Source: an uncultured Bacilli bacterium
GTDB lineage: Bacteria > Bacillota_I > Bacilli_A > RF39 > UBA660
Direction of reading: 5' to 3'
Assembly (NCBI GenBank): GCA_947589435.1
Contig: CANQBI010000008.1
Coordinates: 1-50,110, forward strand
DNA: 50,110 nucleotides
Below the pieces are notes generated by a model that saw nothing but the letters and a program-made list of their open reading frames with translations, was not told the origin of the DNA and did no database searches. This document shows, in pieces, positions 8,947-21,752 of this stretch (within the stretch, counting starts at the first letter, position 1; each line of letters begins with the position of its first letter). A program made the translations under genes and the position numbers.

Positions 8947-10068
8947 TTACTTAATAGTTGTTATCGTGTATGGACTTGATTCACTTCCAAATCCTATTAG
9001 TCCTGCTGTAGATTGAAGATAGAAGACTGGGCGAACCACATGCGTATTGTACAACCAATCGGGGCGCAAGGTGCCGTCCGGAAGCACACGCCACGCAACG
9101 AGACCGCCGTCAGCGCCACACCTAGACATGGTCCATTCGTCCTCAGCGATGTTACCACTATAACCATTTTGTATGAATAACCAATTATCTGTTGAACTAT
9201 TTTGATATGCATTTACATAATCTGAACCATACATTAATCCTATATTTGCTGACACTGTTCCATCTTCTTGTCCTGTTGTTGCTTCTGGTGTTGAGGTTTT
9301 TTTCTCCATATTCCATGTATGATTTTCTATTAATCCTTTTATTCTTGCATTTATTGAACTATAAAATGTTACATTTAAATATGTATATAATGATGATGAA
9401 TCCCATTTTGGATCAGTTGAGGAACTACTATGCCATACTTGGTTTTCTCCATATTTTGAAGCTTTGATTACTTTTAGTTTTCCATCTGTTGTTACACCGA
9501 TTATTCGATACATATTATCAGTATTTGTTTTACATACATCTGGATTTTCATCTCCTAGGCATATGTAATTATTTGTTATTTGGTCTTTTGTTCCTTTAAA
9601 TCTATACATTCCATCTACTGCTGTTGTATGTTCTCCACCTCCAGCATAATAATCGCCACCTTGTTTATCTAATACTTCTAAGGCAGGTCTTCCTTTAGCA
9701 AAGTATAATGTGCAATATATTGTTTGTTTTGTTTTTATTGTTACTATGGGATTCGGACTTGTTTCTTCAAAACTTATATATGGTGTTGTATCTCCTAGGT
9801 CTTGATTATCTTTATCTACACATTTTGATCCTGCATACATATATTCACTTCTACTTGGCCATGTTGTTCTACTTGTATCTTCTTTATAATTAAAATTATC
9901 TTGTTGAATCATTATAGATAATGTCTTATCTTTATTATCAAATGTATCTACTGTTTTTATATCTTCTAAGACTTTGTTATTTGATTTAATTATAAAGTAA
10001 CTACTTATCTCATATATTACTCCAATAGTTAATATAACTACTAATATATTTAATATTCTCTTTTTCAT
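8947..10068 (-). CDS. Variable surface protein A, probable DGR target with C-type-lectin-like C-terminus
   Basis: 373 residues. An N-terminal membrane segment (about 5-27, ILNILVVILTIGVIYEISSYF) anchors an extracellular protein. A conserved module (about residues 130-240) carries YRFKGT, NNYICLGDENPDVC, NMYRIIGVTTDGKLKVIKA, W and YTYLN. The C-terminal module opens IGLMYGSDYVNAY, continues through WTMSR and ends VVRPVFYL; the stretch between the last two is hypervariable among the four paralogues in the window. This plan (constant body, variable patch before a constant RPVFYL end) fits the C-type-lectin-like variable proteins of diversity-generating retroelements. The gene overlaps the partner gene upstream by four bases (ATGA), so the two are translationally coupled. 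Confidence 0.7.
   Translation of the reverse strand: MKKRILNILVVILTIGVIYEISSYFIIKSNNKVLEDIKTVDTFDNKDKTLSIMIQQDNFNYKEDTSRTTWPSRSEYMYAGSKCVDKDNQDLGDTTPYISFEETSPNPIVTIKTKQTIYCTLYFAKGRPALEVLDKQGGDYYAGGGEHTTAVDGMYRFKGTKDQITNNYICLGDENPDVCKTNTDNMYRIIGVTTDGKLKVIKASKYGENQVWHSSSSTDPKWDSSSLYTYLNVTFYSSINARIKGLIENHTWNMEKKTSTPEATTGQEDGTVSANIGLMYGSDYVNAYQNSSTDNWLFIQNGYSGNIAEDEWTMSRCGADGGLVAWRVLPDGTLRPDWLYNTHVVRPVFYLQSTAGLIGFGSESSPYTITTIK
9021..9138 (-). other. DGR-type variable region of protein A
   Basis: Bases 9037-9120 are about 63% G+C by hand count (53 of 84), against an AT-rich remainder of the gene. Constant flanks are shared with the paralogues: GAATGGAC-ATG before and GTTCGCCCAGTCTTCT (9021-9036 on the plus strand) after. 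Relative to proteins B and D, the changes fall mainly on the first two bases of NNC/NNT codons. Confidence 0.7.
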
Positions 10069-10793
10069 TTTATATTTCCTTTCTGTGGTTTATCAAAATA
10101 AGCATGACATATATTTTTACCTGTGGTTTTAAACATAAATCCATTTGTTGCATCATATGTTATTTCTGTTTGTATTCTATCTTTATTATCACATTCATAA
10201 TAAGACATTGTGTAACCACTAGGTATATCCCCTACTATATAGTATTTGTTGTCTCTTACAGTTACGATTGAACCTGTATCAGACTCTATATAAGTAATAA
10301 TTTTTATATCTCCATCTTTTTCTTCATATGGGGTTAAGTTAAAACTATAATATATTCGACATACTACTTGATATGGTTTATTCTCGGTTATTTTTATTAT
10401 TACTTCTCCATCTGTAGGATTAATTGAATAATCTGTTGGATATGTTACTCCTTCAGATTCTTTTGGAATACAATTACTTCTTTTTTCATCTAATACATAA
10501 TTATTTTTAACATCTAAAGGCGGAGTATCATATATATCGTATTTTCTTAAATTAGTTCCATTTTGAACATAATATAATAAATTAACATCTGTAGTTCTAT
10601 CAGTTAAAGGAGAAGTATCTCCTTTACCAGTAAAGTTTCCTACTTTGCTAGTAAAGATTGGAGTCCAAGCGCTTTCATAATTATAATAGGCATGAGTTCC
10701 TTTTAAATATATAAATAGAACAATTACAAAAAGACATATAACAATATACATAATTTTTATATCTAATAATTTTTTTAATTTCTCTCTTATCAT
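10065..10793 (-). CDS. Membrane-anchored partner of surface protein A
   Basis: 242 residues. A short positive N-terminus and one hydrophobic segment (about 14-33, IMYIVICLFVIVLFIYL) end in GTHAYYNYES, which resembles the HAYF/AYY end of SipW-type signal peptides, so cleavage or anchoring is possible. The exported part has KVGNFTGKGDTSPL near its start, a central TPPLDVKNNYVLDEKRSNCIP with a conserved Cys, PYQVVCRIYYSF, and GKNICHAYFD at the end. No known family is recognised. It is a clear paralogue of the protein at 12633-13346 and precedes the variable protein in both cassettes, so the pair probably acts together at the surface. Confidence 0.65.
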   Translation of the reverse strand: MIREKLKKLLDIKIMYIVICLFVIVLFIYLKGTHAYYNYESAWTPIFTSKVGNFTGKGDTSPLTDRTTDVNLLYYVQNGTNLRKYDIYDTPPLDVKNNYVLDEKRSNCIPKESEGVTYPTDYSINPTDGEVIIKITENKPYQVVCRIYYSFNLTPYEEKDGDIKIITYIESDTGSIVTVRDNKYYIVGDIPSGYTMSYYECDNKDRIQTEITYDATNGFMFKTTGKNICHAYFDKPQKGNIK

Positions 10794-10860
10794 TTAACCA
10801 TTCCCTTATATGTTGCATTTGCCGAACTCAATATCCGAAAATGCTATATCATATATAAAA

Positions 10861-10907
10861 AATATATAGTATTTTAAGATAAATGTCAATATCTTATTTT
10901 ACGATAT
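10861..10907 (-). promoter_or_regulatory. Promoter and likely XRE operator of cassette 1
   Basis: On the minus strand TTGACA (10884-10889), 17 bases, TATATT (10861-10866), driving the partner and protein A. The inverted repeat AAGATA/TATCTT (10876-10881 and 10890-10895) straddles the -35 box. TACGATAT (10900-10907) recurs in the cassette 2 control region. The divergent XRE gene next door is the natural candidate to bind here. Confidence 0.5.
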
Positions 10908-10931
10908 GATAAGTTTTTGATGTGATGAATT

Positions 10932-11372
10932 ATGAATAGATTAAAAGAATTAAGAAATGAAAAAAAGTTATTTCAAACCGACTTTGCTAAAATGATTGGA
11001 ATGAGTCAAGGTGGATATTCCCAATATGAAAATGAAGTAACGGATATACCTACTTCAATGCTTAAGAAGTTTTCTAGATATTATAATGTTTCCATTGATT
11101 ATATCTTATATCTAACTAATGTTAGAGAGGCCTATAAAAAATCAAAAGTTGATTATAGTAATCTTAATAGATTAAAAGATATTAGAGAAGATAGAGATTT
11201 ATTACAAAAGGATATAGCTAAAATACTTAATATGAGCCAAAACGGCTACTCCCAATATGAAACAAATACTTTAGATATATCTACTAAAGTACTTAAAAAA
11301 CTATCAGAATTTTATAATGTATCAGTTGATTATTTATTATATATGACTGATGAAAGAAAACCACATAGATAG
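10932..11372 (+). CDS. Double-HTH XRE-family regulator of cassette 1
   Basis: 146 residues made of two tandem Cro/C1-type HTH domains. The first (about 1-65) has MNRLKELRNEKKLFQTDFAKMIGMSQGGYSQYE. The second (about 78-140) has LNRLKDIREDRDLLQKDIAKILNMSQNGYSQYE. Each ends YYNVSIDYILYLT or FYNVSVDYLLYMT, so the protein is an internal duplication that could bind two half-sites as a monomer. It is divergent from the partner/variable-protein pair, the normal place for a local repressor, and ends at a bidirectional terminator. Two further genes in the window (13503 and 27858) share this plan. Confidence 0.85.
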   Translation: MNRLKELRNEKKLFQTDFAKMIGMSQGGYSQYENEVTDIPTSMLKKFSRYYNVSIDYILYLTNVREAYKKSKVDYSNLNRLKDIREDRDLLQKDIAKILNMSQNGYSQYETNTLDISTKVLKKLSEFYNVSVDYLLYMTDERKPHR

Positions 11373-11374
11373 TA

Positions 11375-11403
11375 AAAGGAATTGGTGTATTGCCAATTCC
11401 TTT
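11375..11403. terminator. Bidirectional terminator between XRE gene 1 and protein B
   Basis: AAAGGAATTGG-loop-CCAATTCCTTT, an 11-bp stem with A/T runs on both sides. It serves the plus-strand XRE gene and the minus-strand gene for protein B. Confidence 0.8.
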
Positions 11404-11433
11404 AATATATAACTTATTTATTATTTATTCTAA

Positions 11434-12618
11434 TTATTTAATAGTTGTTATTGTGTATGGACTTGTTTCAGTTCCAAATCCTATTAGCCCTGCTGTGGAT
11501 GACAGATAGAAGACTGGGCGAACCGCACTCGTATAGTGCACAGGGTAGGCGCTAAAGCGGCCGTCCAAAAACACATACCACGCATAGTAAGACTCGCCAT
11601 CTCGGCCATACCTAGTCATTGTCCATTCGTATGTATTACTATATGTTGTTGAACTACTACTTAATCCATGTGTTATATGTAACCAACTATTGGTGTTTGT
11701 TGCGTATGTCCATGAATTATAATAATCTCCTGCATACATTAAGCCTACTCGATATTGAGTGGATGTCGCAGTTTTTGATTCTGCTCCACTTGTTGTTGCG
11801 TCTGTTCTGTCACCTTTCCACCATTTTACTTCTGCTATGTACGGTTTTATTCTTGAATCTATTGTACTTCCATTGTAGAATGTTCCATTTAAGTATGTTC
11901 TTACTGTATTACTTCCATTATCCCAATCTATATTTGAACTAAAACTACTTGACCATGCTTGGCCTATATTTGATGGTGTTGCCTTTATTACCTTTAACAT
12001 TCCTGCTTTTAATCCTAGCGTACTTTCTTCACTTCCGTCTGTTACCCCTATTATTCGATACATATTATCTGGATTTGTCTTACATTTTTCGGGATTTTCG
12101 TCTGCTCCTAAACATATATAGTTATTTGTTACTTCACTATATGTTCCCTTGAATCTATATAATCCTTCTACTGCTGTTCTACTTCCTTGTTTACCACCAC
12201 CATAGTATTGTCCGCCTTGAGAATCTAATACTCCTAAGGCCGATTTACCTATTGTAAAATATAGTGTACAATATATGGTTTTCTTTGTTGTTATTGTTGC
12301 CGTATGACTTGTTTCTTCAAAACTTATATAGGATGAGGTGTCTTCTATATCTTTTCCATCTTTATCTGTACATTTAGCCCCTGAATATAAATATTCTGTT
12401 GTACTTGGCCAAGCAGTCCTACTTGTATCTTCTTTATAAGTATAATCTTCTTGTTGAATCATTATAGATAATGCCTTATCTTTATTATCAAATATATCTA
12501 CTGTTTTGATATCTTTCAAAACTTTTGTGTTTGGTTTCAAATTAAAATAACTATATGCTTCATATATTATTCCAAATGTTATTATAAATACTAATATGTT
12601 TAAGATTTTTCTTTTCAT
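11434..12618 (-). CDS. Variable surface protein B, probable DGR target
   Basis: 394 residues, paralogue of protein A and close to it over the first half (LNILVFIITFGIIYEAYSYF anchor; VLKDIKTVDIFDNKDKALSIMIQQ). The middle module has LYRFKGT, NNYICLGADENPEKC, NMYRIIGVTDGSEESTLGLK and VRTYLNGTFY. The C-terminus runs VGLMYAGDYYNSW, then WTMTRYG, then the variable stretch, and ends AVRPVFYLSSTAGLIGFG. The end is nearly identical to that of protein A, so recent duplication or gene conversion is likely. The difference in the middle of the C-terminal module is much greater than in the flanks. Translated 14 bases after the cassette 2 partner. Confidence 0.7.
   Translation of the reverse strand: MKRKILNILVFIITFGIIYEAYSYFNLKPNTKVLKDIKTVDIFDNKDKALSIMIQQEDYTYKEDTSRTAWPSTTEYLYSGAKCTDKDGKDIEDTSSYISFEETSHTATITTKKTIYCTLYFTIGKSALGVLDSQGGQYYGGGKQGSRTAVEGLYRFKGTYSEVTNNYICLGADENPEKCKTNPDNMYRIIGVTDGSEESTLGLKAGMLKVIKATPSNIGQAWSSSFSSNIDWDNGSNTVRTYLNGTFYNGSTIDSRIKPYIAEVKWWKGDRTDATTSGAESKTATSTQYRVGLMYAGDYYNSWTYATNTNSWLHITHGLSSSSTTYSNTYEWTMTRYGRDGESYYAWYVFLDGRFSAYPVHYTSAVRPVFYLSSTAGLIGFGTETSPYTITTIK
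11508..11630 (-). other. DGR-type variable region of protein B
   Basis: The variable core is about 11524-11610. It is bounded by the same constant end as in protein A (AGAAGACTGGGCGAAC, 11508-11523 on the plus strand) and by GAATGGACAATGACTAGG. G+C is raised relative to the neighbouring coding sequence. Reading from GCGTGG, codons TAT, TTT, TTG, GAC, CGC, AGC, GCC align with CGT, CTT, CCG, GAC, ACC, CGC, CCC in protein A. Confidence 0.68.
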
Positions 12619-12632
12619 TTTGCTTCAACTCC

Positions 12633-13346
12633 TTAACTTGCTTTGTCAAAATATGTATGGCATATATTCTTTCCTGTGGTTGTGAATGTAAATCCTTTAC
12701 TTGCATCATAATTAACTTCTGTCGTTATATTATTTGTGTTATTACATTCATAATCTGTCATGGTATATCCTGTTGGTACTGTATCTCCTAAAACATAGTA
12801 TTTATTATTTCTTACTGTTACAATATCACCTGTATCAGATTGTAAATATATTATTATCTTTACATCGCCATCTTTTTCTTCATATTCTGTAAAATTGAAA
12901 CTATAATATATTCGACATACTACTTGTTTAGGTGTATTTTCACTTACCTTCATTGTTACTGTTCCATCTTCTTTTATAGAATATGTTTTATCTCCATCCA
13001 TTTCATATGTGGCATCAGTTGGAATACAATTACTTCTTTTTTCATCTAATACGTAATTACTTTTAACATCTAAAGGTGGTGTATCATACACATCATATTG
13101 TTTTAAATTAGTTCCATTTTGAATATAATATAAAACATTAACATCCGAAGGTTGGTCTAAAGGAGAAGTATCTCCTTTACCTGTAAAGTTACCAACCTTT
13201 CCTGTAAATATCGGAACTGGTTCCATCTCATAATCATAATAAGCATGAGTATTTTTTAAACATATAAATAAAATTATAACTAAAAGGCCTATAACTATGT
13301 ATATTATTCTTATATTTAATAATTTTTTAAACTTTTCTTTTATCAT
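12633..13346 (-). CDS. Membrane-anchored partner of surface protein B
   Basis: 237 residues, paralogue of the gene at 10065-10793 with the same layout. The anchor IIYIVIGLLVIILFICL ends NTHAYYDYEM, followed by KVGNFTGKGDTSPL, TPPLDVKSNYVLDEKRSNCIP, KQVVCRIYYSF and the end GKNICHTYFD. Cysteines are at the same places. The charged regions between these blocks differ more than the blocks. It is the first gene of cassette 2 on the minus strand and is divergent from its own XRE gene. Function unknown; a surface co-factor of protein B is inferred only from the conserved pairing. Confidence 0.65.
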   Translation of the reverse strand: MIKEKFKKLLNIRIIYIVIGLLVIILFICLKNTHAYYDYEMEPVPIFTGKVGNFTGKGDTSPLDQPSDVNVLYYIQNGTNLKQYDVYDTPPLDVKSNYVLDEKRSNCIPTDATYEMDGDKTYSIKEDGTVTMKVSENTPKQVVCRIYYSFNFTEYEEKDGDVKIIIYLQSDTGDIVTVRNNKYYVLGDTVPTGYTMTDYECNNTNNITTEVNYDASKGFTFTTTGKNICHTYFDKAS

Positions 13347-13400
13347 TTAACCATTCCTTTTTATGTTGCATTTACCGATATAATATTGCCTAAATAATCT

Positions 13401-13485
13401 TTATGTTAAATTATACGATATTTTATAATAGAATTATATCGTAAAACTTAACATAAATCAATAAGCAGTTTTATATTTATGTTAA
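13401..13485. promoter_or_regulatory. Operator region of cassette 2
   Basis: Three copies of one 9-base word lie between the divergent XRE and partner genes: TTATGTTAA at 13401-13409, its complement TTAACATAA at 13448-13456, and TTATGTTAA at 13477-13485. Nested inside the first two is TACGATAT (13414-13421) with ATATCGTA (13436-13443). The symmetrical arrangement suits binding by the double-HTH regulator and overlaps the TATAAT-like sequence at 13410-13415 on the minus strand. Confidence 0.5.
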
Positions 13486-13502
13486 CTTTTCTATGATGAA
13501 TT

Positions 13503-13949
13503 ATGAATAGATTAAAAGAATTAAGAAAAGAAAAAAATTTACTTCAAAAAGATATTGCGGAATTTCTTAAAATGAGCCAAAATGGTTATTCTCAATATGA
13601 GAATGAAATTACCGATATCCCTACTGTTGTTTTAAAGAAGTTATCTAATTATTATAATGTTTCCATAGATTATATTCTTTGTTTAACTGATAAAAAAGAT
13701 AAATACTATCCTTCAAATATTGTTAATATTACTAATAATATGAATAGACTTAGTGAAATAAGAAATGATTTAGATTTAAAACAAATAGAAGTTTCCGAAA
13801 AATTACCTATAAGTAGACCTACTTATTCTACTTATGAAACTTGTTATTGTGATATTCCTATAAAAATTTTAAAAGACCTAGCAACGTTTTATAATGTATC
13901 CGTAGACTATATATTATACGCAACTGATGAGAGAAAACCTCATAGATAG
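13503..13949 (+). CDS. Double-HTH XRE-family regulator of cassette 2
   Basis: 148 residues with two Cro/C1-type HTH units. The first is MNRLKELRKEKNLLQKDIAEFLKMSQNGYSQYE. The second, after NITNN, is MNRLSEIRNDLDLKQIEVSEKLPISRPTYSTYE and is more diverged in its recognition helix. The C-terminus, VDYILYATDERKPHR, matches the end of regulator 1 (MTDERKPHR). It lies divergently upstream of cassette 2. Because the second HTH has changed (SRPTYSTYE against SQNGYSQYE), the two regulators may no longer read the same operator, which would let the cassettes be controlled separately. Confidence 0.85.
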   Translation: MNRLKELRKEKNLLQKDIAEFLKMSQNGYSQYENEITDIPTVVLKKLSNYYNVSIDYILCLTDKKDKYYPSNIVNITNNMNRLSEIRNDLDLKQIEVSEKLPISRPTYSTYETCYCDIPIKILKDLATFYNVSVDYILYATDERKPHR

Positions 13950-13951
13950 CA

Positions 13952-13983
13952 AAAGAATTGGCATTTTAAGCCAATTCTTTTTT
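13952..13983. terminator. Bidirectional terminator
   Basis: AAAGAATTGGC-loop-GCCAATTCTTT followed by TTT, shared by the XRE gene on the plus strand and the ATPase gene on the minus strand. It is the counterpart of the hairpin after regulator 1. Confidence 0.82.
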
Positions 13984-15187
13984 ACTTATCTAATAACCAT
14001 TCATAAACATTTTGGACTTTTATACCCTCTTCATTAGATAACGGTATATTGTCTGATGTTAAGATTATTTTTTCATAGTTATCATTTATCTTTTTTAAAG
14101 ATCTTAATTCTCTATCTAAAACTTTAGAATCATTTTCATCTTTGCCTTTTAAAGTATCTGTAACTTGGATATATACCCTTCCATCTTTATTAAGGGCTAC
14201 AAAGTCAACTTCATAATTATCAAACTTACCTATATAGACATCATAGCCTCTTCTTAAAAGTTCTAAATAAACAACATTTTCTAATACATGACCATAATCT
14301 CCTAATTTACGTCCTAAGATAAAGTATCTTAATCCTAAATCAGTTACATAATATTTTTCACCAGTTTTTAAATAAAGTTTACCCTTGATATCATATCTAG
14401 TAGTTTTATAAAGAAAATAACTTTCCGTAAATCCTTCCAAATATCTTTCAATAGTGCGAACATTAATATCTCGGCCATCACTAGCAAGCGTACTCGCAAT
14501 ATTATTTATTGATACTAAATTACCGATATTATCCATCGCAAAATTAGCCACACTTCGAAGCATTGTTTCATCAGTTATTTTTTTCCTTGTCATAACATCT
14601 TTTATGATAATATCATTATATAAACTACTTAAATAGATATTTACATCATCTTCTGTTTCTAAAGATGTTGTAAAAGGAAGGGAACCAAAAGAAATATATT
14701 TACGATATAATTCTTCATTAGACAAATCTTTATAAACACTCTTATATTCTTTAAATGATAAAGGTAACATTTTGACTTCGATATATCTTCCGGATAAAAG
14801 AGTAGCAAGTTCACTAGATAACAAATTAGCATTAGAGCCTGTTATATATAAATCAACATTTTTCTTTATATATAAACTATCCACTGCTTTTTGAAATTCA
14901 TTTATCTTTTGAACTTCATTGATAAAAACATAATTTTTCTTATTATCTTTTAAATTATCATTTATATAATTATATAAAGACATATAATCAGTTAGAAAAT
15001 TATATTTTAAGTCTTCTAAATTGATACTTATTATTTGGTCTTTTTTAACACCATTATTAAGTAAATATTCTTTATATAATTCTAAAAGCGTAGATTTTCC
15101 ACATCTTCTAATACCGGTTATTACTTTGATTATTTCTTTATCCTTAAATCTTTTTAAGACATCTAAATATTCATTTCTTTCAATCAT
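13982..15187 (-). CDS. AAA_14/DUF4143 family ATPase
   Basis: 401 residues. The N-terminal AAA domain has the P-loop GIRRCGKST (about 25-33), a Walker B-like NYVFINEVQKI and the sensor-like LYITGSNANLL. The C-terminal DUF4143 region has YYVTDLGLRYFILG and then VLENVVYLELLRRGYDVYIG, EVDFVALNKDGRVYIQV, which resembles a PD-(D/E)XK nuclease fold in which the usual Lys is replaced by Gln. Members are common, often multicopy, in gut Firmicutes and Bacteroidetes and have no settled function. The gene is a single transcription unit with an unusual repeat array upstream (15243-15304). Confidence 0.88.
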   Translation of the reverse strand: MIERNEYLDVLKRFKDKEIIKVITGIRRCGKSTLLELYKEYLLNNGVKKDQIISINLEDLKYNFLTDYMSLYNYINDNLKDNKKNYVFINEVQKINEFQKAVDSLYIKKNVDLYITGSNANLLSSELATLLSGRYIEVKMLPLSFKEYKSVYKDLSNEELYRKYISFGSLPFTTSLETEDDVNIYLSSLYNDIIIKDVMTRKKITDETMLRSVANFAMDNIGNLVSINNIASTLASDGRDINVRTIERYLEGFTESYFLYKTTRYDIKGKLYLKTGEKYYVTDLGLRYFILGRKLGDYGHVLENVVYLELLRRGYDVYIGKFDNYEVDFVALNKDGRVYIQVTDTLKGKDENDSKVLDRELRSLKKINDNYEKIILTSDNIPLSNEEGIKVQNVYEWLLDK

Positions 15188-15242
15188 TGTAAATTCCCCT
15201 CTTTCTATATATATTATACATCTTCTAATTAAAAATGCAAAG

Positions 15243-15304
15243 TTTTTGTACTCAAATACAAAAAAGTTGTAATTTTAAAAAGTTTTTGTAGTTTAATACA
15301 AAAA
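15243..15304. repeat. Two inverted-repeat units upstream of the DUF4143 ATPase
   Basis: TTTTTGTA-6 bases-TACAAAAA (15243-15264) and TTTTTGTA-6 bases-TACAAAA (15283-15303), start to start 40 bases apart, so on the same face of DNA at about four helical turns. They lie 55-120 bases before the ATPase start and look like a pair of operators. Confidence 0.5.
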
Positions 15305-15330
15305 TTTTAAAATATTAAAAAACATATAAA

Positions 15331-15348
15331 AACCCGATTGCTCGGGTT
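15331..15348. terminator. Terminator after the ABC transporter gene
   Basis: AACCCGA-TTGC-TCGGGTT with T-runs on both strands, five bases after the stop codon at 15354. Confidence 0.85.
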
Positions 15349-15353
15349 ATTTT

Positions 15354-18300
15354 TTATTCTGTTCTTAAAGCTTCCACTGGATCTTTCTTTGAGGCCGCTC
15401 TTGCAGGAATTAATCCTCCAATTAAAGTTAAGATAACACTTAAGATAACTAAGATTAAAGCTTTACTTATATCAAGGGAAGCAGAAAGTGGAATATTTCC
15501 GGTAAAGTGATGAAGAACAGCATTAATAATTGGAATAAAAGCATAGGAAATTCCAATACCTAAGGTTCCAGATAAAAGACCAATAATAAAGGTTTCTGCA
15601 TTAAAGATAGATGAAACATTTCTTTTGGAGGCTCCAATCGCTCTTAAAATACCAATTTCTTTAGTTCTTTCATAAACAGAAATATATGTTATTACCCCAA
15701 TCATAATACTAGATACAACTAAAGAGATAGAGACAAAAGCAATTAAAACATAACTTACGGCATTAACAATGGTCTTAACCGAATCCATTAATATTCCCGT
15801 CATATCGGTATAATTAATTTTCTTTTCTTCTTCCACCCTATCATTATAATTATCTAAGAAACTTAAGAAATCTTCTTTGCCATCAAAATCCGTAAAATAG
15901 AAAGACATGGCGGTTGGTTCTTCATAATCTTGATAACCTAAAGAAAGTAAATTACTACTTGCGGAAGCTTCACTTGAACTCATCATCGCACTTACAATTC
16001 TCGTTAATTCTTCCTCAGTATATTTTAATTTAAAAGCTGAGGCTATTTTACTTTGGTCAACATTAAAGGAACTAGCTAAAGAACTGGTATAAACAGTTGT
16101 GAGTTCTCCTACTTTTGTTAAAATATCTTTTTGCATTTTAGCTTCCGTCATGGCACTGCCCATTTTCTCATTTGTAGCTAAGATAGCGGCACTCTTTAAA
16201 TAACTATCGATAACGGTATTTTTTAATTCCTCAATAACAACTGCTTTTGGATTTGTTGTATCTACCACATATTCAGAATTAGTTGTTTTCATAAATTCAT
16301 TATATCCCGTAATATAAGCATTAAGTAAAGATGTTAGTAATCCTTTATAAGTAGTTATTAAAGTACTAGTTGGAATAATATAGTTTGTTTCCATCGTCAT
16401 TAACTTATTTAAAACATCTTCTTTATTTAAATAATTATCGACAATAGTATTTACTTCACTTAAACTAAATTCATTTACGCTCGCAAATATATCTTTAGCA
16501 AAACTATCTAAATTTTCTTTAAAGGCATTCGTGGCTCCACTTGTATCCGTAGTAATAGATTTAGATATTTCTTCCATATATCCTTTAGTTTTTTCTTCCA
16601 TTACTTTAGAATCTATATTTATATTAAAAGCACTTTGGAGTTTTTCTTCATCAATTTCCATTAAATCTTTAAATTCAAAATTAACTTTTTTATTTTTATC
16701 GGTAAACTTCTTACCAGAAAAAACGTCAATATCTTCATTTGCTATTTGCTTTTTAACAACATCTTGGTCCTTCGCATAATCAATTATATATTTAGTTAAA
16801 GCGGATGTATAATTAACCCCGGGATTTAAAGCCATGGTATTCATACTGCCTTCTTTCGGAGCAAGAATTCCCACGATTTTTAATTTTAAGGCTTTATTAT
16901 AAACATTCTTAACATAATCTTTGTTGGCACTCATATCTTCATAAATGTTATATTCATTATTATATTTATATAAATCACTTGGCATAACGACTCTTAAATC
17001 TATATTCATTAAATCATCATAAGTTAATGTCATTGGTTCATTAGCAACACTATTGCTTTTACCATTCATAATATTATTAACCATTTCCGTTAGTTCATTA
17101 TTATCTCTTAAACCTAAAGAATAAACCAGTAGATCAGATATTTCATTTTTATCTGATAAAACAATGATTGCTTCATCATAGTTTTTGGGGTATCTTCCCT
17201 TTAAAACATCATATTGTTCTTCAATTTCTTTCGTATTATCAACCATTTCGGAATAAACGGAAGAAAAAGATGACATTGAACTCATTAAACCATTTGATCC
17301 CATAATGGAGGTAAATAAACTACTTGGATTTACTTTAACTATTTCTTTAGTTTCATCAATGGTATAAATATTAGGACTTATGCTATAAGTATATTTTAAG
17401 TTAGCAATATCTTTATCTACTTTTTTATAATTATCTTCTAAATAACTTTTAAAACTTTTTAAATCATTAGTACTAATACTGGAAAGCATCGAAGAAATAT
17501 TTTGTCTTTCCACAACTGTTCCATCCGCTACATCCTCGGTACTTCCCCCTTGCATAGATAAAAGAGCACTTGTTAAATCTCCCGTTTCACTCATAATCGT
17601 TAACGGGTATGAAGTCATCGTTTCTTCTTGAATGGAATCGACATAATTTTGAAAACCAGTGGAAACAGACATTATAAGAGCAATACCAATAATTCCAATG
17701 GAACCCGCTAGGGCTACCAGTAAGGTTCTCGCCTTTTTGGTCATTAAGTTATTAAAAGATAAACTTAAAGCTGTTAAAAATTTCATTTTCGTTTTATTTC
17801 TTTTCCGGTTACTTTCTTCCCCATCTTCTTTGGTATTAACCTTTCCATCATAAGGATTAGAATCGGAAATTATTTTCCCATCTTTTAAGTTAATAATTCT
17901 AGTCGAATAAGTTTCGGCAAGTTCTGGATTATGCGTAACCATAATAACTAATTTATCTTTCGATATTTTCTTTAAAACATTCATTATTTGAAGACTTGTT
18001 TCACTATCTAGGGCCCCTGTTGGTTCATCCGCTAAAATTATTTCGGGGTCATTAACTAAAGCTCTTGCTATAGCTACCCTTTGCATTTGCCCACCCGAAA
18101 GTTGATTAGGCTTTTTATAAATATGATCTTTTAATCCTACTTCTATTAAAGCCTTCTTCGCTCTTTCTAAAGCTTCTTTTTTAGAAATACCAGATAATGT
18201 TAAAGCAAGTCGCACATTAGATAAAACACTTTGATGACTAATAAGATTATAACTTTGAAAAACAAAACCAATTCTATGATTTCTGTAACTATCCCAATCC

Positions 18301-18524
18301 GCATCTTTAAACTTTTTAGTACTTACTTCATTAATAATTAAATCACCAGAATCATAATGGTCTAGGCCTCCAATGATGTTTAAAAATGTTGTTTTACCAC
18401 TTCCAGATGGCCCTAGGATACTTGCAAATTCACATTTTCTGAAATTAACACTAACGCCATCTAAAGCCTTTTGTTTAAAACCTTCCGTATTGTATTCTTT
18501 TTTAATGTTTCTAATCTCTAACAT
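15354..18524 (-). CDS. ABC transporter, ATPase fused to FtsX/MacB-type permease
   Basis: About 1056 residues. The start is set at the ATG that lies seven bases after AAGGAG; an ATG two codons earlier abuts that site. The ATPase (about 1-230) has Walker [10 protein letters not shown] (38-46), the signature LSGGQMQR and Walker [13 protein letters not shown]. The permease follows: the first membrane helix near 265 ([19 protein letters not shown]), a very long outside domain of about 600 residues, then three C-terminal helices in FtsX style with [17 protein letters not shown]. It ends [15 protein letters not shown], the usual last motif. The family exports or releases peptides or lipids, or transmits force to cell-wall enzymes. 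The substrate is unknown. Confidence 0.93.
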
Positions 18525-18593
18525 AGGCATCTCCTTAACAATCTACTTAATTATATTAAATGAATGTGAAAAATACAAGAAAAGATTAAGATA

Positions 18594-18624
18594 TAACCAA
18601 AAAAAGTGAAATTTCTTTCACTTT
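18594..18624 (-). terminator. Terminator of the variable surface protein C/D operon
   Basis: On the minus strand AAAGTGAAA-GAAA-TTTCACTTT followed by a run of T, 28 bases after the stop of protein C. Confidence 0.82.
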
Positions 18625-18651
18625 CTAAACTTTATACTTATAAATTTATTA

Positions 18652-20079
18652 CTAAGCCTCTAAAATTATAAATGGATTATCTTCTTTTCCTTCACCAGAT
18701 AATAATATATCAGGTGTTAGATAGAAAACAGGTCGAAACGCATATCCAACACTCACTCCATAACCCCAAAACAAACCACCATCATGAAACACAGCCCATG
18801 CATCATAAAAGCCACCAGGATATATGCCATACCTAGTCATTGTCCATTCGTTTAGACTACTATATGTTGAACTACTACTTAATCCATGTGTTACATGTAG
18901 CCAATTACTTGTTGATGCCATATATGCATTAATATAATCTGTTCCATACATTAACCCTATTTTGCCCGGATTAGTTGTCTTTTTTCCAGTTGGTTCTTCT
19001 GTTGCTCCTGGGGTGCTTGGTTGATCTTGAATGTACCAGTTTTGAATTGTTATAAGTTTATCCCAGTATGTTCCATTTAATCCATTTTTGATTGTATCTA
19101 AGAAATCTTCATTTAAATATGTAAACATTGTCGATGAATCCCATGGCACATCTGGTGACGAATCACTGTGCCATGCTTTACTTTGAGATGTTGGTACGGC
19201 TCTTATTATTTTTAATTGTCCTTCTTGTAATCCAATTTCATTATCATCTTTATTTGTTAATCCTATTATTCTATACATGTAAGTTTTTGGTGCTCCTAGA
19301 CATTCATCTGTGTCATCTGTTCCAAAACATATATAGTTATCTGTTACTGTTGAGGCATCTCCAACAAATCGGTACATTCCTGATTTTTCTATAAATCCAG
19401 GTTTTGATTGTAATGCCTCTAATGGTGGTAAACCCTTAAGTTCTTTACATACAAAACTATCTACACTTATCTTTACTTTCATTTCTTGGTCTGCTAAGTA
19501 TGATTGGTCTCTATCAGCATTATTTAATTTTAAATAGGCTTTTATATATGTAGGAGTTGCTGTTTGTCCATCCAATTTAAATTTTATAGTAGTGCCAGAA
19601 GTAGATATATTTTTTAAATCTATTTCTTGTTCTTCTTCTCCATATATTAGTCCTAAGGTAAAATCTCCTTCTTGTATTTGGTCTTTTATACTAGTAGTAA
19701 ATTCTAATTTAATTGTGGCACTACAAGTTTGAGTTTCGGATAATATTCCATTTATATCTATTCTTCCTAAATCTTTTATTCCTTCTTCTTTACTATCTGC
19801 ATAATTCTTATCTTGATTATCAGTAGCATAATAATCTCCTAAGTTTTTATATGCCATATCTTTAGCATCTACAGATATATGAAAGTTCTCTACTTTACCT
19901 GATAAGGTTATACCTCCTGCTTCACCAGTAGATATTTCTATTTTAGTAGTAGTATCTTCTCCATTTACTTGTAATGAAAAGAAAGCATAAGATACTCCAA
20001 TTACTGCAAGTATTAATGCAAGTACTATTGCTGTAGTGGCTATTATTATATTTCTTTTATTATTTATATTATCATTCAT
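18652..20079 (-). CDS. Variable surface protein C with SipW-like N-terminus
   Basis: 475 residues. The N-terminus, NNKRNIIIATTAIVLALILA then VIGVSYAFFSL, is the SipW-dependent type found on TasA/camelysin-like matrix proteins. A beta-rich region follows (about 40-215: ITLSGKVENFHISV, TCSATIKLEF, YIKAYLKLNNADRDQSYLA, ISVDSFVC). The shared module (about 228-320) has MYRFVGDASTVTDNYICFG, YMYRIIGLTN, LKIIRA and TYLN. The C-terminus has IGLMYGTDYINAY, WTMTRYG, a variable stretch and FRPVFYLTPDILLSGEGKEDNPFII. It differs from A and B in the N-terminal half but keeps the same C-terminal display module. It begins three bases after protein D stops, so D and C form one operon. Confidence 0.7.
   Translation of the reverse strand: MNDNINNKRNIIIATTAIVLALILAVIGVSYAFFSLQVNGEDTTTKIEISTGEAGGITLSGKVENFHISVDAKDMAYKNLGDYYATDNQDKNYADSKEEGIKDLGRIDINGILSETQTCSATIKLEFTTSIKDQIQEGDFTLGLIYGEEEQEIDLKNISTSGTTIKFKLDGQTATPTYIKAYLKLNNADRDQSYLADQEMKVKISVDSFVCKELKGLPPLEALQSKPGFIEKSGMYRFVGDASTVTDNYICFGTDDTDECLGAPKTYMYRIIGLTNKDDNEIGLQEGQLKIIRAVPTSQSKAWHSDSSPDVPWDSSTMFTYLNEDFLDTIKNGLNGTYWDKLITIQNWYIQDQPSTPGATEEPTGKKTTNPGKIGLMYGTDYINAYMASTSNWLHVTHGLSSSSTYSSLNEWTMTRYGIYPGGFYDAWAVFHDGGLFWGYGVSVGYAFRPVFYLTPDILLSGEGKEDNPFIILEA
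18731..18850 (-). other. Variable region of protein C, diverged
   Basis: Position and protein flanks match the other variable regions (WTMTRYG before, FRPVFYL after). At DNA level the flank differs (GTTTCGACCTGTTTTC rather than GTTCGCCCAGTCTTC) and the core is T/G-rich without the C-rich third positions. It may use another template, or may have been diversified long ago and then drifted. Confidence 0.45.
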
Positions 20080-20082
20080 ATA

Positions 20083-21554
20083 CTATCCCTCACTTATTAC
20101 AAATGGATTTGTTTCTGTTCCTTCTCCAGTTAAGGTTACATCTGGTATTAGATAGAAGACTGGACGAACCGCATAAGAACTGTCCACATAATAGGTGCCG
20201 TTCAAGGTGCCGCCCGAAAGCACAGACCACGCATAGCAATTGCCGAGGGCGTTGCCATACCTACTCATGGTCCATTCATATAATGCATTTCCACTTAATG
20301 ATGAACTTGCACTTATTCCATTTTTTACATATAACCAACAACTGGTATTTAAACTTTTATTACATCCATTGTAATAATCACTCGCATACATTAATCCTAC
20401 TTTATGATTTGCTGATAATGTTGTTTTGTTTTTTTCTGTTGTTAATATCCATGAACCTACATTATTATCTGCTATGTACCATTGTGGATTACTTATTAAT
20501 TCACTCCAATTATGTGTCTCTACTTTTGTAGTTATATCTGTTATTGTTTTAAAAAATGTTGCATTTAAATATATCTTTTGAACATCTGCTGAATCCCATA
20601 TAACATCACTATTACTGCTATGCCATACTTGACTTGTATTTGATGGCGTTGCCTTGATTATTTTTAATTGGTCCGGTACTAAACCTAATTCAGTATTTAC
20701 ATTATCTGTTGTTATTCCTATTATTCTATACATATAGGTATCTTTATCACTGGTGCATGTATCTTTTTCTGTTGTTCCAAAACATATGTAGTTATTCTTT
20801 ACTTCTTCATATGTTCCTACATATCTTATTAGTTCATCATTATCCGCTACTGTCTTTAAATGGTCTGAATCGGTTGTTTTTTGTAATGTAGCAAGAACAC
20901 TTTTATCTACTTCACACACAAAATCAGTAATGCTAATAGTTACATTTAAGGTTTTACCGGCTAAACCACTTTGGTCTGTTTCTTGATTAGTAAATTTAAG
21001 ATAGGCTTTAATTGGTTCTATGTTATTTAAAGCAAACGAAAAAGTTGGAGATGTATTAATTTCTGATAAGTCATATTCACTTTCTTTATTCCCTTGAATT
21101 ATAACTAATACTAAATCATTAGTTTTTAATTCAGGTTTCATATCTCCATCTAATCCTATATTTATTGTAGCACTACATACATAATCATCTACTAAAGTAT
21201 CTTGAGTTTGAATATCTCCTAAAGTTATTGTTCCTGATTCTTTATCTGTTTCATAGTTTTTACTTTCATCAGTTGTTCCATAATAAACATTATTTACTTT
21301 ATTTTGAGCCATATCCGAAACATCTAAATGAATTTTATAATTTGATACTCCTCCACTTAATGTTATACTATTTCTTTTTCCGGTATGAATTGTTATATCT
21401 GTATCTTCAAAATTATTTTGTACCCCTAGGGTAAAGTAGGCGTAAGTAACCCCCCCCCGATTGCCAAAATTAACGCTACTAAACTAAGTATACTTCTTTT
21501 TATTATTTTCTTTCTATCCTTATTATTGTTATTTAAAATATTATCCTCGACCAT
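20083..21554 (-). CDS. Variable surface protein D, frameshifted in a G9 tract (phase-variable or broken)
   Basis: The gene should start at 21554, where ATG follows an AAGGAG site: MVEDNILNNNNKDRKKIIKR, then SILSLVALILAIG. It then meets nine G (21450-21458). With nine the frame hits TAG within 12 codons. With four, seven or ten G it continues as GVTYAYFTLGVQNN, a SipW-like signal peptide like that of protein C, and stays open to 20083 (about 490 residues). The body has YIKA-like PIKAYLKFTNQETDQSGLAG, NNYICFGTTEKDTC, MYRIIGITTDN and KIYLNATFF. The C-terminus has VGLMYASDYYNG, WTMSRYG, the variable stretch and AVRPVFYLIPDVTLTGEG. As sequenced, only an internal start such as the ATG at 21312 could give product, and that would lack export. 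Confidence 0.7.
20157..20278 (-). other. DGR-type variable region of protein D
   Basis: The core is about 20171-20260, C/G-rich. The end flank is GTTCGTCCAGTCTTCT (one base from A and B) and the front is GAATGGACCATGAGTAGG. From GCGTGG its codons TCT, CTT, TCG, GGC, ACC, AAC, GGC align with those of A and B, with third bases unchanged. Confidence 0.68.
21450..21458 (-). repeat. Homopolymer of nine G in the signal-peptide codons of protein D
   Basis: Nine consecutive G (coding strand) in a region that is otherwise AT-rich. The homologous position in protein C reads ATTGGAGTA. Slipped-strand changes here would switch the frame. Confidence 0.85.
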
Positions 21555-21597
21555 TATACTACTCCTTCATTTTGTTTCAAATACCGAATATACTATC

Positions 21598-21644
21598 ATT
21601 AATAATATGGCATACAATTTTATTTTATATACCATATTATTAAT
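21598..21644. repeat. 13-bp perfect inverted repeat upstream of protein D
   Basis: ATTAATAATATGG (21598-21610) and CCATATTATTAAT (21632-21644) flank 21 bases, about 45-90 bases before the protein D start. It could be an operator or a leader hairpin. The spacer looks too short for an invertible promoter. Confidence 0.5.
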
Positions 21645-21752
21645 GTCGCTACTTGGTATGTTACATTTAAATGATATCTCAAATAATGCCATTAGTCAAT
21701 ATCTCAAAGAGTATATTTTAAAAATATAATGTTTCTTTATTCCAAGAAAAAA

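Follow-up and report, generated by a model that had tools for sequence, protein, structure and literature searches.

The 50,110-nucleotide window analysed here is contig C8 (CANQBI010000008.1) of a 1,440,375-base draft genome of an uncultured Bacilli bacterium (62 contigs, 93.09% complete, 1.12% contamination), whose named near relatives are 'Bacilli bacterium' metagenome-assembled genomes (MAGs) from rabbit gut and goat rectum. Three surface-protein genes in the window, designated A (8947..10068), B (11434..12618) and D (body at 20083..21312), all on the minus strand, carry variable regions (VRs) near their 3' ends and are very probably targets of one genome-wide diversity-generating retroelement (DGR), in which a single reverse transcriptase (RT)-Avd machine would be served by many template genes in trans. 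The genome holds a DGR-type RT, an Avd-like protein and 13 template repeats (TRs), its VRs match these templates with a bias toward change at template adenines, the template RNAs show covariation, and template genes and RT co-occur among related genomes. A preliminary description drawn from the window alone had proposed that A, B and D are targeted from a distance by a DGR whose template, with A at the variable positions, should lie beside an RT and an Avd-type gene; all three have now been found together on contig C13. The mechanism class named there is supported, and the genome shows more: in place of one template there are 13, the majority at a distance from the RT, and neither B nor D agrees with any one recovered template at every base other than adenine.

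The reverse transcriptase, the template genes and their distribution

Two RVT_1-family RTs are present in the genome, one on C13 and one on C17. The C13 enzyme (374 residues, C13:36703-37824) carries IGNMTSQ and YMDD in its translation, and motifs of the IGxxxSQ and YMDD type mark DGR RTs. It matches RVT_1 with 66.5 bits and the PHROG Reverse transcriptase family at 9.4e-74, finds only matches below the cut-offs among NCBIfam models, and has as its best match in the PDB 8ub7 (3.6e-22), which we take to be the Bordetella phage DGR RT. Directly before it lies an Avd-like protein recognised by the PHROG family 'Avd protein of DGR' (4.2e-15), with matches below the cut-offs to Pfam bAvd (28.5 bits, cut-off 40) and NCBIfam Avd (34.4 bits, cut-off 80). 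A short MutS domain I protein (L002:2739-3098; 32.0 bits, cut-off 20.6), also before the RT, is placed between the template and the avd-like gene, and by reading such a protein is also present in the related genomes G001, G024 and G034; MutS-like accessory proteins occur with DGRs, and we can but guess that this one perhaps shelters mismatched cDNA from repair. The C17 RT (L001:1261-2232) is retron-like, scoring 215.5 bits against the NCBIfam retron St85 model, just under its cut-off of 235.

A genome search with the RT-side TR stretch returned 36 matches, 13 of which have long flanks found in no VR. The 13 TR genes so delimited lie on eight contigs, two on C13 near the RT (C13:38798-38944 and C13:40255-40386), four on C6, two on C7 and one each on C4, C11, C18, C28 and C45. 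In their common layout a TATAAT-like box and the leader GGTAATCTTGA precede the TR, and about 139 bases lead from there to a G+C hairpin and a run of T, the whole measuring 265-287 nt from the -10-like box to the terminator. None of the 13 TRs belongs to a gene, yet the VR frame is open through every one; their lengths between the fixed ends (range 83-107 nt) all equal 2 mod 3, and 386 of their 389 adenines occupy codon position 1 or 2. The flank after the repeat differs between the two classes, reading CCAGTCTTCTATCT in VRs versus a stretch with AGCCTTCTATAACTT in most TRs (AGACTT and AGTCTT in two), and the two would act as the initiation of mutagenic homing site (IMH) and its template counterpart IMH*, respectively.

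Searched with R1, a covariance model for the 3' module, the genome itself gave no TR beyond the 13 at E values up to 1; as R1 was built from these 13 TR genes, the outcome speaks only against a further close copy. Rfam gave 0 matches above the gathering score in the loci L005, L013, L014, L017 and L001. Carriage of the TR RNA by phages found no support, since an exact 25-base stretch of the module gave 0 matches in viral_contigs, a search that would miss variants. TR genes often adjoin a gene of the DUF3800 or the PD-(D/E)XK transposase (PDDEXK_2) family, as in L227 and L235 on contigs C6 and C7 and in L217 and L218 of G001 and G034, and such neighbours offer a possible route of TR spread.

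Alignment of 36 TR RNAs from this and related genomes yields 33 base pairs in four helices that are paired in 100% of cells, compared with 45-53% when the partners are slid by 1-3 columns. Eight of the 33 pairs show changes on both sides, a count matched in 1 of 500 shuffles, and 17 pair types are observed, below the shuffled mean of 19.1; the structure was derived from the same sequences that were used to test it. Most of the covariation resides in helix 3 and the terminator, and helix 2 is invariant and hence uninformative in this respect. Helix 1, in which the leader upstream of the TR pairs with the far end of the 3' module, rests on few events, because a single sequence (L100) supplies its double changes. 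Recruitment of the RT-Avd complex in the phage system is the task of a folded spacer that lies 3' of the TR (PMC12875486), and by analogy the 3' module described here may recruit its own RT-Avd complex likewise.

Among 60 relatives, R1 was confined to the genus of this bacterium, with matches in 18 of its 37 genomes and in 0 of the 23 others, and 12 of these 18 TR-bearing genomes hold two or more TRs (13 here, 12 in G026, 11 in G014 and 7 in G032). A scan of 296 genomes of the class, under a stricter filter that recovered 11 of the 13 own copies, gave three positives, namely this genome, G014 and G160, a member of another genus of the family. The DGR RT is present at a minimum of 56% identity in 16 of the 18 TR-bearing genomes of the genus, broken by stops or incomplete in several (G003, G012, G021, G024, G027), and the 19 TR-less genomes of the genus yielded no more than a 63-residue fragment at 75% in G009 and weak matches in G018. 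One TR-bearing exception, G029, has another RT only, in an assembly that is 62% complete. TRs also stand in a row beside the RT, four in G001 and G034 and two in G024. The draft state of the genome, with the contig number, completeness and contamination given above, might suggest that TR copies of several strains or organisms were pooled in one MAG during assembly or binning; we regard this as extremely improbable, since the 13 TRs have different neighbours on their eight contigs, two or more TRs occur in 11 further genomes of the genus, and the four TRs of G001 and G034 occupy one stretch of one contig.

The closest TRs of sister species differ from those of this genome by 0 (L127), 1 (L134) and 2 (L078) bases, so that templates are kept while targets turn over. 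The backbone DNA beside the RT is about 95-97% identical to that of G060, and the DNA flanking the window's target genes is 94-98% identical in the same genome. The stretch 18583-21739, containing D and a further paralogue, C, is absent in G060 and G061, and the A-B site (8947-13192) holds one different target paralogue in G060. When orthologous targets were sought among 21 own and 38 other VR loci, the latter including own loci again with resulting 100% rows, the best match in another species that spans most of a target-gene body was 86% (784 bases).

Adenine bias and template fit in the variable regions

As the preliminary description had it, the constant flank GTTCG[C/T]CCAGTCTTCT ends genes A, B and D, the codon rows it aligned after a shared GCGTGG are correct, and the stretches around the VRs are GC-rich (62% G+C in A, 52% in B and 53% in D, against 31-34% for the genes and 26.7% for the window). 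The VR of A (92 nt, 9032..9123) finds its best template on contig C45 (L014), that of B (95 nt, 11519..11613) is best explained as a mosaic of the templates at C4 (L016) and C13:40255 (L010), and that of D (98 nt, 20165..20262) has C6:27904 (L011) as best ungapped template. Each is followed by a constant, IMH-like 3' flank, whose function as such is presumed, at 9019..9039 (one mismatch to the pattern), 11506..11526 and 20152..20172 (both exact), VRs and flanks alike being on the minus strand. Gene C (18652..20079, minus strand) lies between B and D and contains a VR-like stretch at about 18734-18834. An AlphaFold2 (AF2) model of the last 224 residues of the A protein is C-type-lectin-like by VIA-align fold comparison, with 2y3c among the matches; the VRs lie in the C-termini of proteins with this predicted fold, and gene C shares the fold region of A, B and D. 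A sequence search of the target domain against the PDB returned 0 matches up to an E value of 1.

Across the 1.44 Mb genome, a 21-base flank pattern with up to two mismatches has 35 matches, one of them a TR, leaving 34 VR candidates on 22 contigs, 11-13 of which match a TR clearly; the reversed pattern has 0 matches in the same scan, so the recurrence of the flank exceeds chance. Twenty-nine of the 34 sites were compared with the 13 TRs, with gene C as a 30th row and the sites C10:10651, C16:17701, C18:19688, C20:12593 and C26:19227 set aside. In a set of 13 VRs chosen by a total identity of at least 0.64, template adenines are changed in 222 of 401 cases and other bases in 119 of 855, and 65% of the mismatches face A in the TR while 13% face A in the VR. 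Counts limited to codon positions 1 and 2, which remove ordinary codon degeneracy, give changes at 193 of 324 adenines and 42 of 258 other bases for the 11 best VRs, whose selection by a non-adenine mismatch below 20% favours the claim of adenine bias, and at 495 of 814 and 222 of 734, respectively, for all 29 VRs. The observations that would have contradicted the preliminary description are not made: an RT and templates exist, and the differing sites between the 11 best VRs and their templates are spread unequally over codon positions 1, 2 and 3 (134, 108 and 34).

At the level of individual genes, the VR of A differs from the C45 TR at 20 of 30 adenines, 4 of 62 other bases and 0 of 25 third bases (best template chosen by total identity for all third-base counts), that of B from its best TR at 15 of 29, 10 of 66 and 5 of 26, and that of D from the C6:27904 TR at 19 of 33, 9 of 65 and 4 of 27. 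D and B fit less well than A, and the earlier assertion that everything can be derived by changing only A proves too strong for all three, as it fails at these non-adenine positions. The VR at C44:7925 likewise shows 0 of 28 third bases differing, and the 11 best VRs together show 32 of 291.

Gene C, which fits no recovered template (best TR identity 0.49, 13 of 27 third bases differing), provides an internal control. Its adenine contingency is nevertheless significant (21 of 27 adenines versus 29 of 71 other bases, p 9.8e-4), because template adenines sit at unconserved, free protein positions, and a contingency p-value as sole proof of adenine-directed change was therefore rejected; what separates A, B and D from C is their low change at non-adenine and third bases. 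A family of fast-evolving paralogous surface proteins, shaped by positive selection and gene conversion with no retroelement involved, would be in keeping with the positive contingency of gene C, as well as with the size of the paralogue family and its rapid gene turnover between close relatives. That explanation is already disfavoured, and we consider it very improbable: third bases are unchanged in A and C44 where first and second bases have been rewritten, mismatches face A in the TR and not in the VR, and template RNA genes co-occur with an RT.

Template choice was assessed in a matrix of 12 of the 29 VRs against the 13 TRs, in which, by our count, a remote TR fits better than both RT-side TRs in 8 of the 12 VRs. 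For gene A the C45 TR fits ungapped with 4 of 62 non-adenine differences, compared with 14 of 66 (15 gap columns) and 10 of 63 (3 gap columns) for the RT-side TRs; for C44:7925 the C11 TR leaves 3 of 66, compared with 9 of 71 and 6 of 64, with 6 gap columns each. D is ambiguous, with 9 of 65 for the ungapped remote TR and 8 of 64, with one codon gap, for an RT-side TR. A single-TR origin for all VRs was rejected, because neither length nor fixed bases are the same in all TRs and different VRs have different best TRs. A rule pairing each target with the TR that adjoins it is also unsupported, as the VR at C11:30576 fits a C6 TR (5 of 64) over its neighbour (12 of 61).

The same 12 VRs were submitted to a mosaic test that allows one TR switch and compares the outcome with 1000 simulated single-TR VRs, charging for skipped template bases, without which the scoring favours the longest TRs. 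One switch lowers the non-adenine cost beyond simulation (P 0.010 or less) in 8 of the 12 VRs, including D and also B, for which the combination of L016 and L010 gives P 0.001; such a signal was found in neither A (P 0.085) nor C44. The clearest case is C1:13111, whose 5' part follows the C11 template and whose 3' part follows the C45 template, reducing the cost from 5 to 1, a drop equalled in no simulation. Recombination is suggested, by reading, for TRs of sister species as well (L128), so that part of the mosaic signal may reflect template evolution and not homing.

Several observations weigh against a single DGR with many templates in trans, in addition to the contingency of gene C. Roux et al. 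use a threshold of 75% of mismatches at adenines (PMC8144416); A (83%), C44 (86%) and C1:13111 (79%) lie above it, and B (60%) and D (68%) fall under it, with 65% for the 13 pooled VRs. Every VR departs from every TR at some non-adenine bases, 3 of 66 in the best case (C44:7925), whereas known trans targets can match their TR perfectly (PMC10907252). The RT-side L010 ties with the best remote TR for B (10 of 66 and 10 of 64) and is the best ungapped fit for two of the 12 VRs, C3:53265 and C12:14660, and no RT of any kind was found in G014 (94% complete) despite its 11 TR matches (L222, L223, L224). The fits of L010 and the RT-less TRs of G014 are also what might be expected of an ordinary DGR, in which activity is limited to the RT-side TR or TRs and the remaining TR genes are dead copies that arose when target-TR cassettes were duplicated, and 4 of the 13 TRs indeed lie within 1.5 kb of a same-strand VR candidate, as in a classic cassette. 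We nonetheless judge dead copies unlikely, given that leader, 3' module and terminator are intact and covarying in all 13 TR genes, that the reading frame is kept in 13 of 13, that 8 of 12 VRs are fitted better by remote TRs, and that near-identical TRs are kept in sister species.

Target loci and homopolymeric G runs

The A protein is probably membrane-anchored, judging from its N-terminus, and upstream of the gene lies an open reading frame for a membrane-anchored partner protein (10065..10793, minus strand) with no match in Pfam and NCBIfam. Gene B, an open reading frame like A and the D body, encodes a paralogue of A at 60% identity and has its own membrane-anchored partner upstream, read from the translation (12633..13346, minus strand). 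Double helix-turn-helix (HTH) regulators of the Cro/C1 type adjoin these pairs and are divergent from them: one at 10932..11372 on the plus strand (HTH_3, 9.5e-30) and an open reading frame at 13503..13949 on the plus strand that is by reading similar to it.

The start codon and signal-anchor frame of D (21450..21554, minus strand) are out of frame with the D body in the present assembly, and this frame ends in a run of nine G at 21450-21458; in the G061 counterpart of D the start frame is likewise out of frame with the body. Nine-G runs also occur in the signal-anchor or leader regions of target genes at L238:1745, L017:1962, L048:2534 and L151:2411, against a genome background of 27% G+C, and look like a phase-variable switch on DGR targets. 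G runs of 8 or 9 also occur between TTGACA-like and TATAAT-like boxes upstream of surface-protein genes (L016:1846, L121:668, L132:837, L109:11683, L199:2728), where they are possible promoter-spacer switches. In all, about 1.03 Mb of loci, overlaps included, contain 12 distinct G runs of 8-9.

Proposed mechanism, known systems and significance

We propose that the single RT-Avd machine on C13 would use any one of 13 or more template RNAs to make adenine-mutated cDNA, each RNA being transcribed from its own small gene at a separate genome site, with the common leader and the structured 3' module forming a handle recognised by the RT-Avd complex. Between about 12 and 34 surface-protein genes, those with TR-like sequence and the GTTCGCCCAGTCTTCTAT flank, would receive this cDNA at their 3' ends by homing, many-to-many and perhaps to the present day, so that the tip of the C-type-lectin-like domain would be replaced. 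The templates differ in fixed codons and, in frame, in length, so that a change of template alters both scaffold and loop length. A fuller version of this model stands an even chance in our estimation: the dispersed, independently transcribed template genes would constitute a library of different in-frame scaffolds that serves a second library, of lectin-like surface genes, successive partial homing from different templates would build mosaic VRs, and runs of nine G may add on-off switching in some targets. Diversity would then arise from adenine mutagenesis, recombination between templates and changes in loop length, together a bacterial counterpart of combinatorial segment use.

The system shares with the DGR of Bordetella phage BPP-1 an RT, an Avd-like protein, a TR, adenine-directed change and a C-type-lectin-like target, and its 3' module resembles in place the folded BPP-1 3' spacer that recruits bRT-Avd (PMC12875486). 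BPP-1, however, has one TR between avd and brt, in contrast to the 13 separate TR genes with promoter-like box and terminator found here, and the targets here are dispersed. The Treponema denticola DGR similarly has a bacterial host and remote surface-protein targets with a lectin-like fold (2y3c), whereas in strain ATCC35405 one TR and one RT serve seven targets (PMC4891356). Thiohalocapsa PB-PSB1, with 9 loci and 15 targets, likewise includes loci that are incomplete and targets that are supplied in trans, but its RTs fall into four classes, every one of which has a complete locus, and the accessible text describes no stand-alone template gene family for it (PMC10907252). Lectin-like targets are likewise numerous and dispersed in the DGRs of Trichodesmium, where they occupy 18 loci, and of other cyanobacteria; there are two DGR RTs, and dispersed templates are not mentioned in the accessible portions of these papers (PMC8867640, PMC7517822).

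Of the 271 multi-VR DGRs surveyed by Yan et al. (2019), 216 have a single TR, which leaves others with more, and TR plurality itself is therefore not new; their A-type several-TR example has two TRs, compared with 13 here, and their six-TR Pseudomonas case shows few A-to-N changes by their own account (PMC6642488). In one further paper, 'multiple TRs' in connection with DGRs means different TRs in individuals' metagenomes. A dispersed stand-alone template gene family was not found described in the open-access literature searched; multi-target and few-TR DGRs are known, and a dispersed family of trans-acting template genes would be new.

If the template genes act in trans, a DGR template would be no fixed component of a cassette and instead an RNA gene that can be separated and amplified and that has a handle of its own for the RT; this handle could be tested directly, and one RT would diversify many proteins along many scaffolds. 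Surveys that seek repeats beside an RT would in that case undercount templates as well as targets, and Roux et al. themselves state that remote targets are invisible to their survey (PMC8144416). This bacterium, in which 13 templates meet some 30 targets within a single cell, would offer a natural set for questions of template-target choice.

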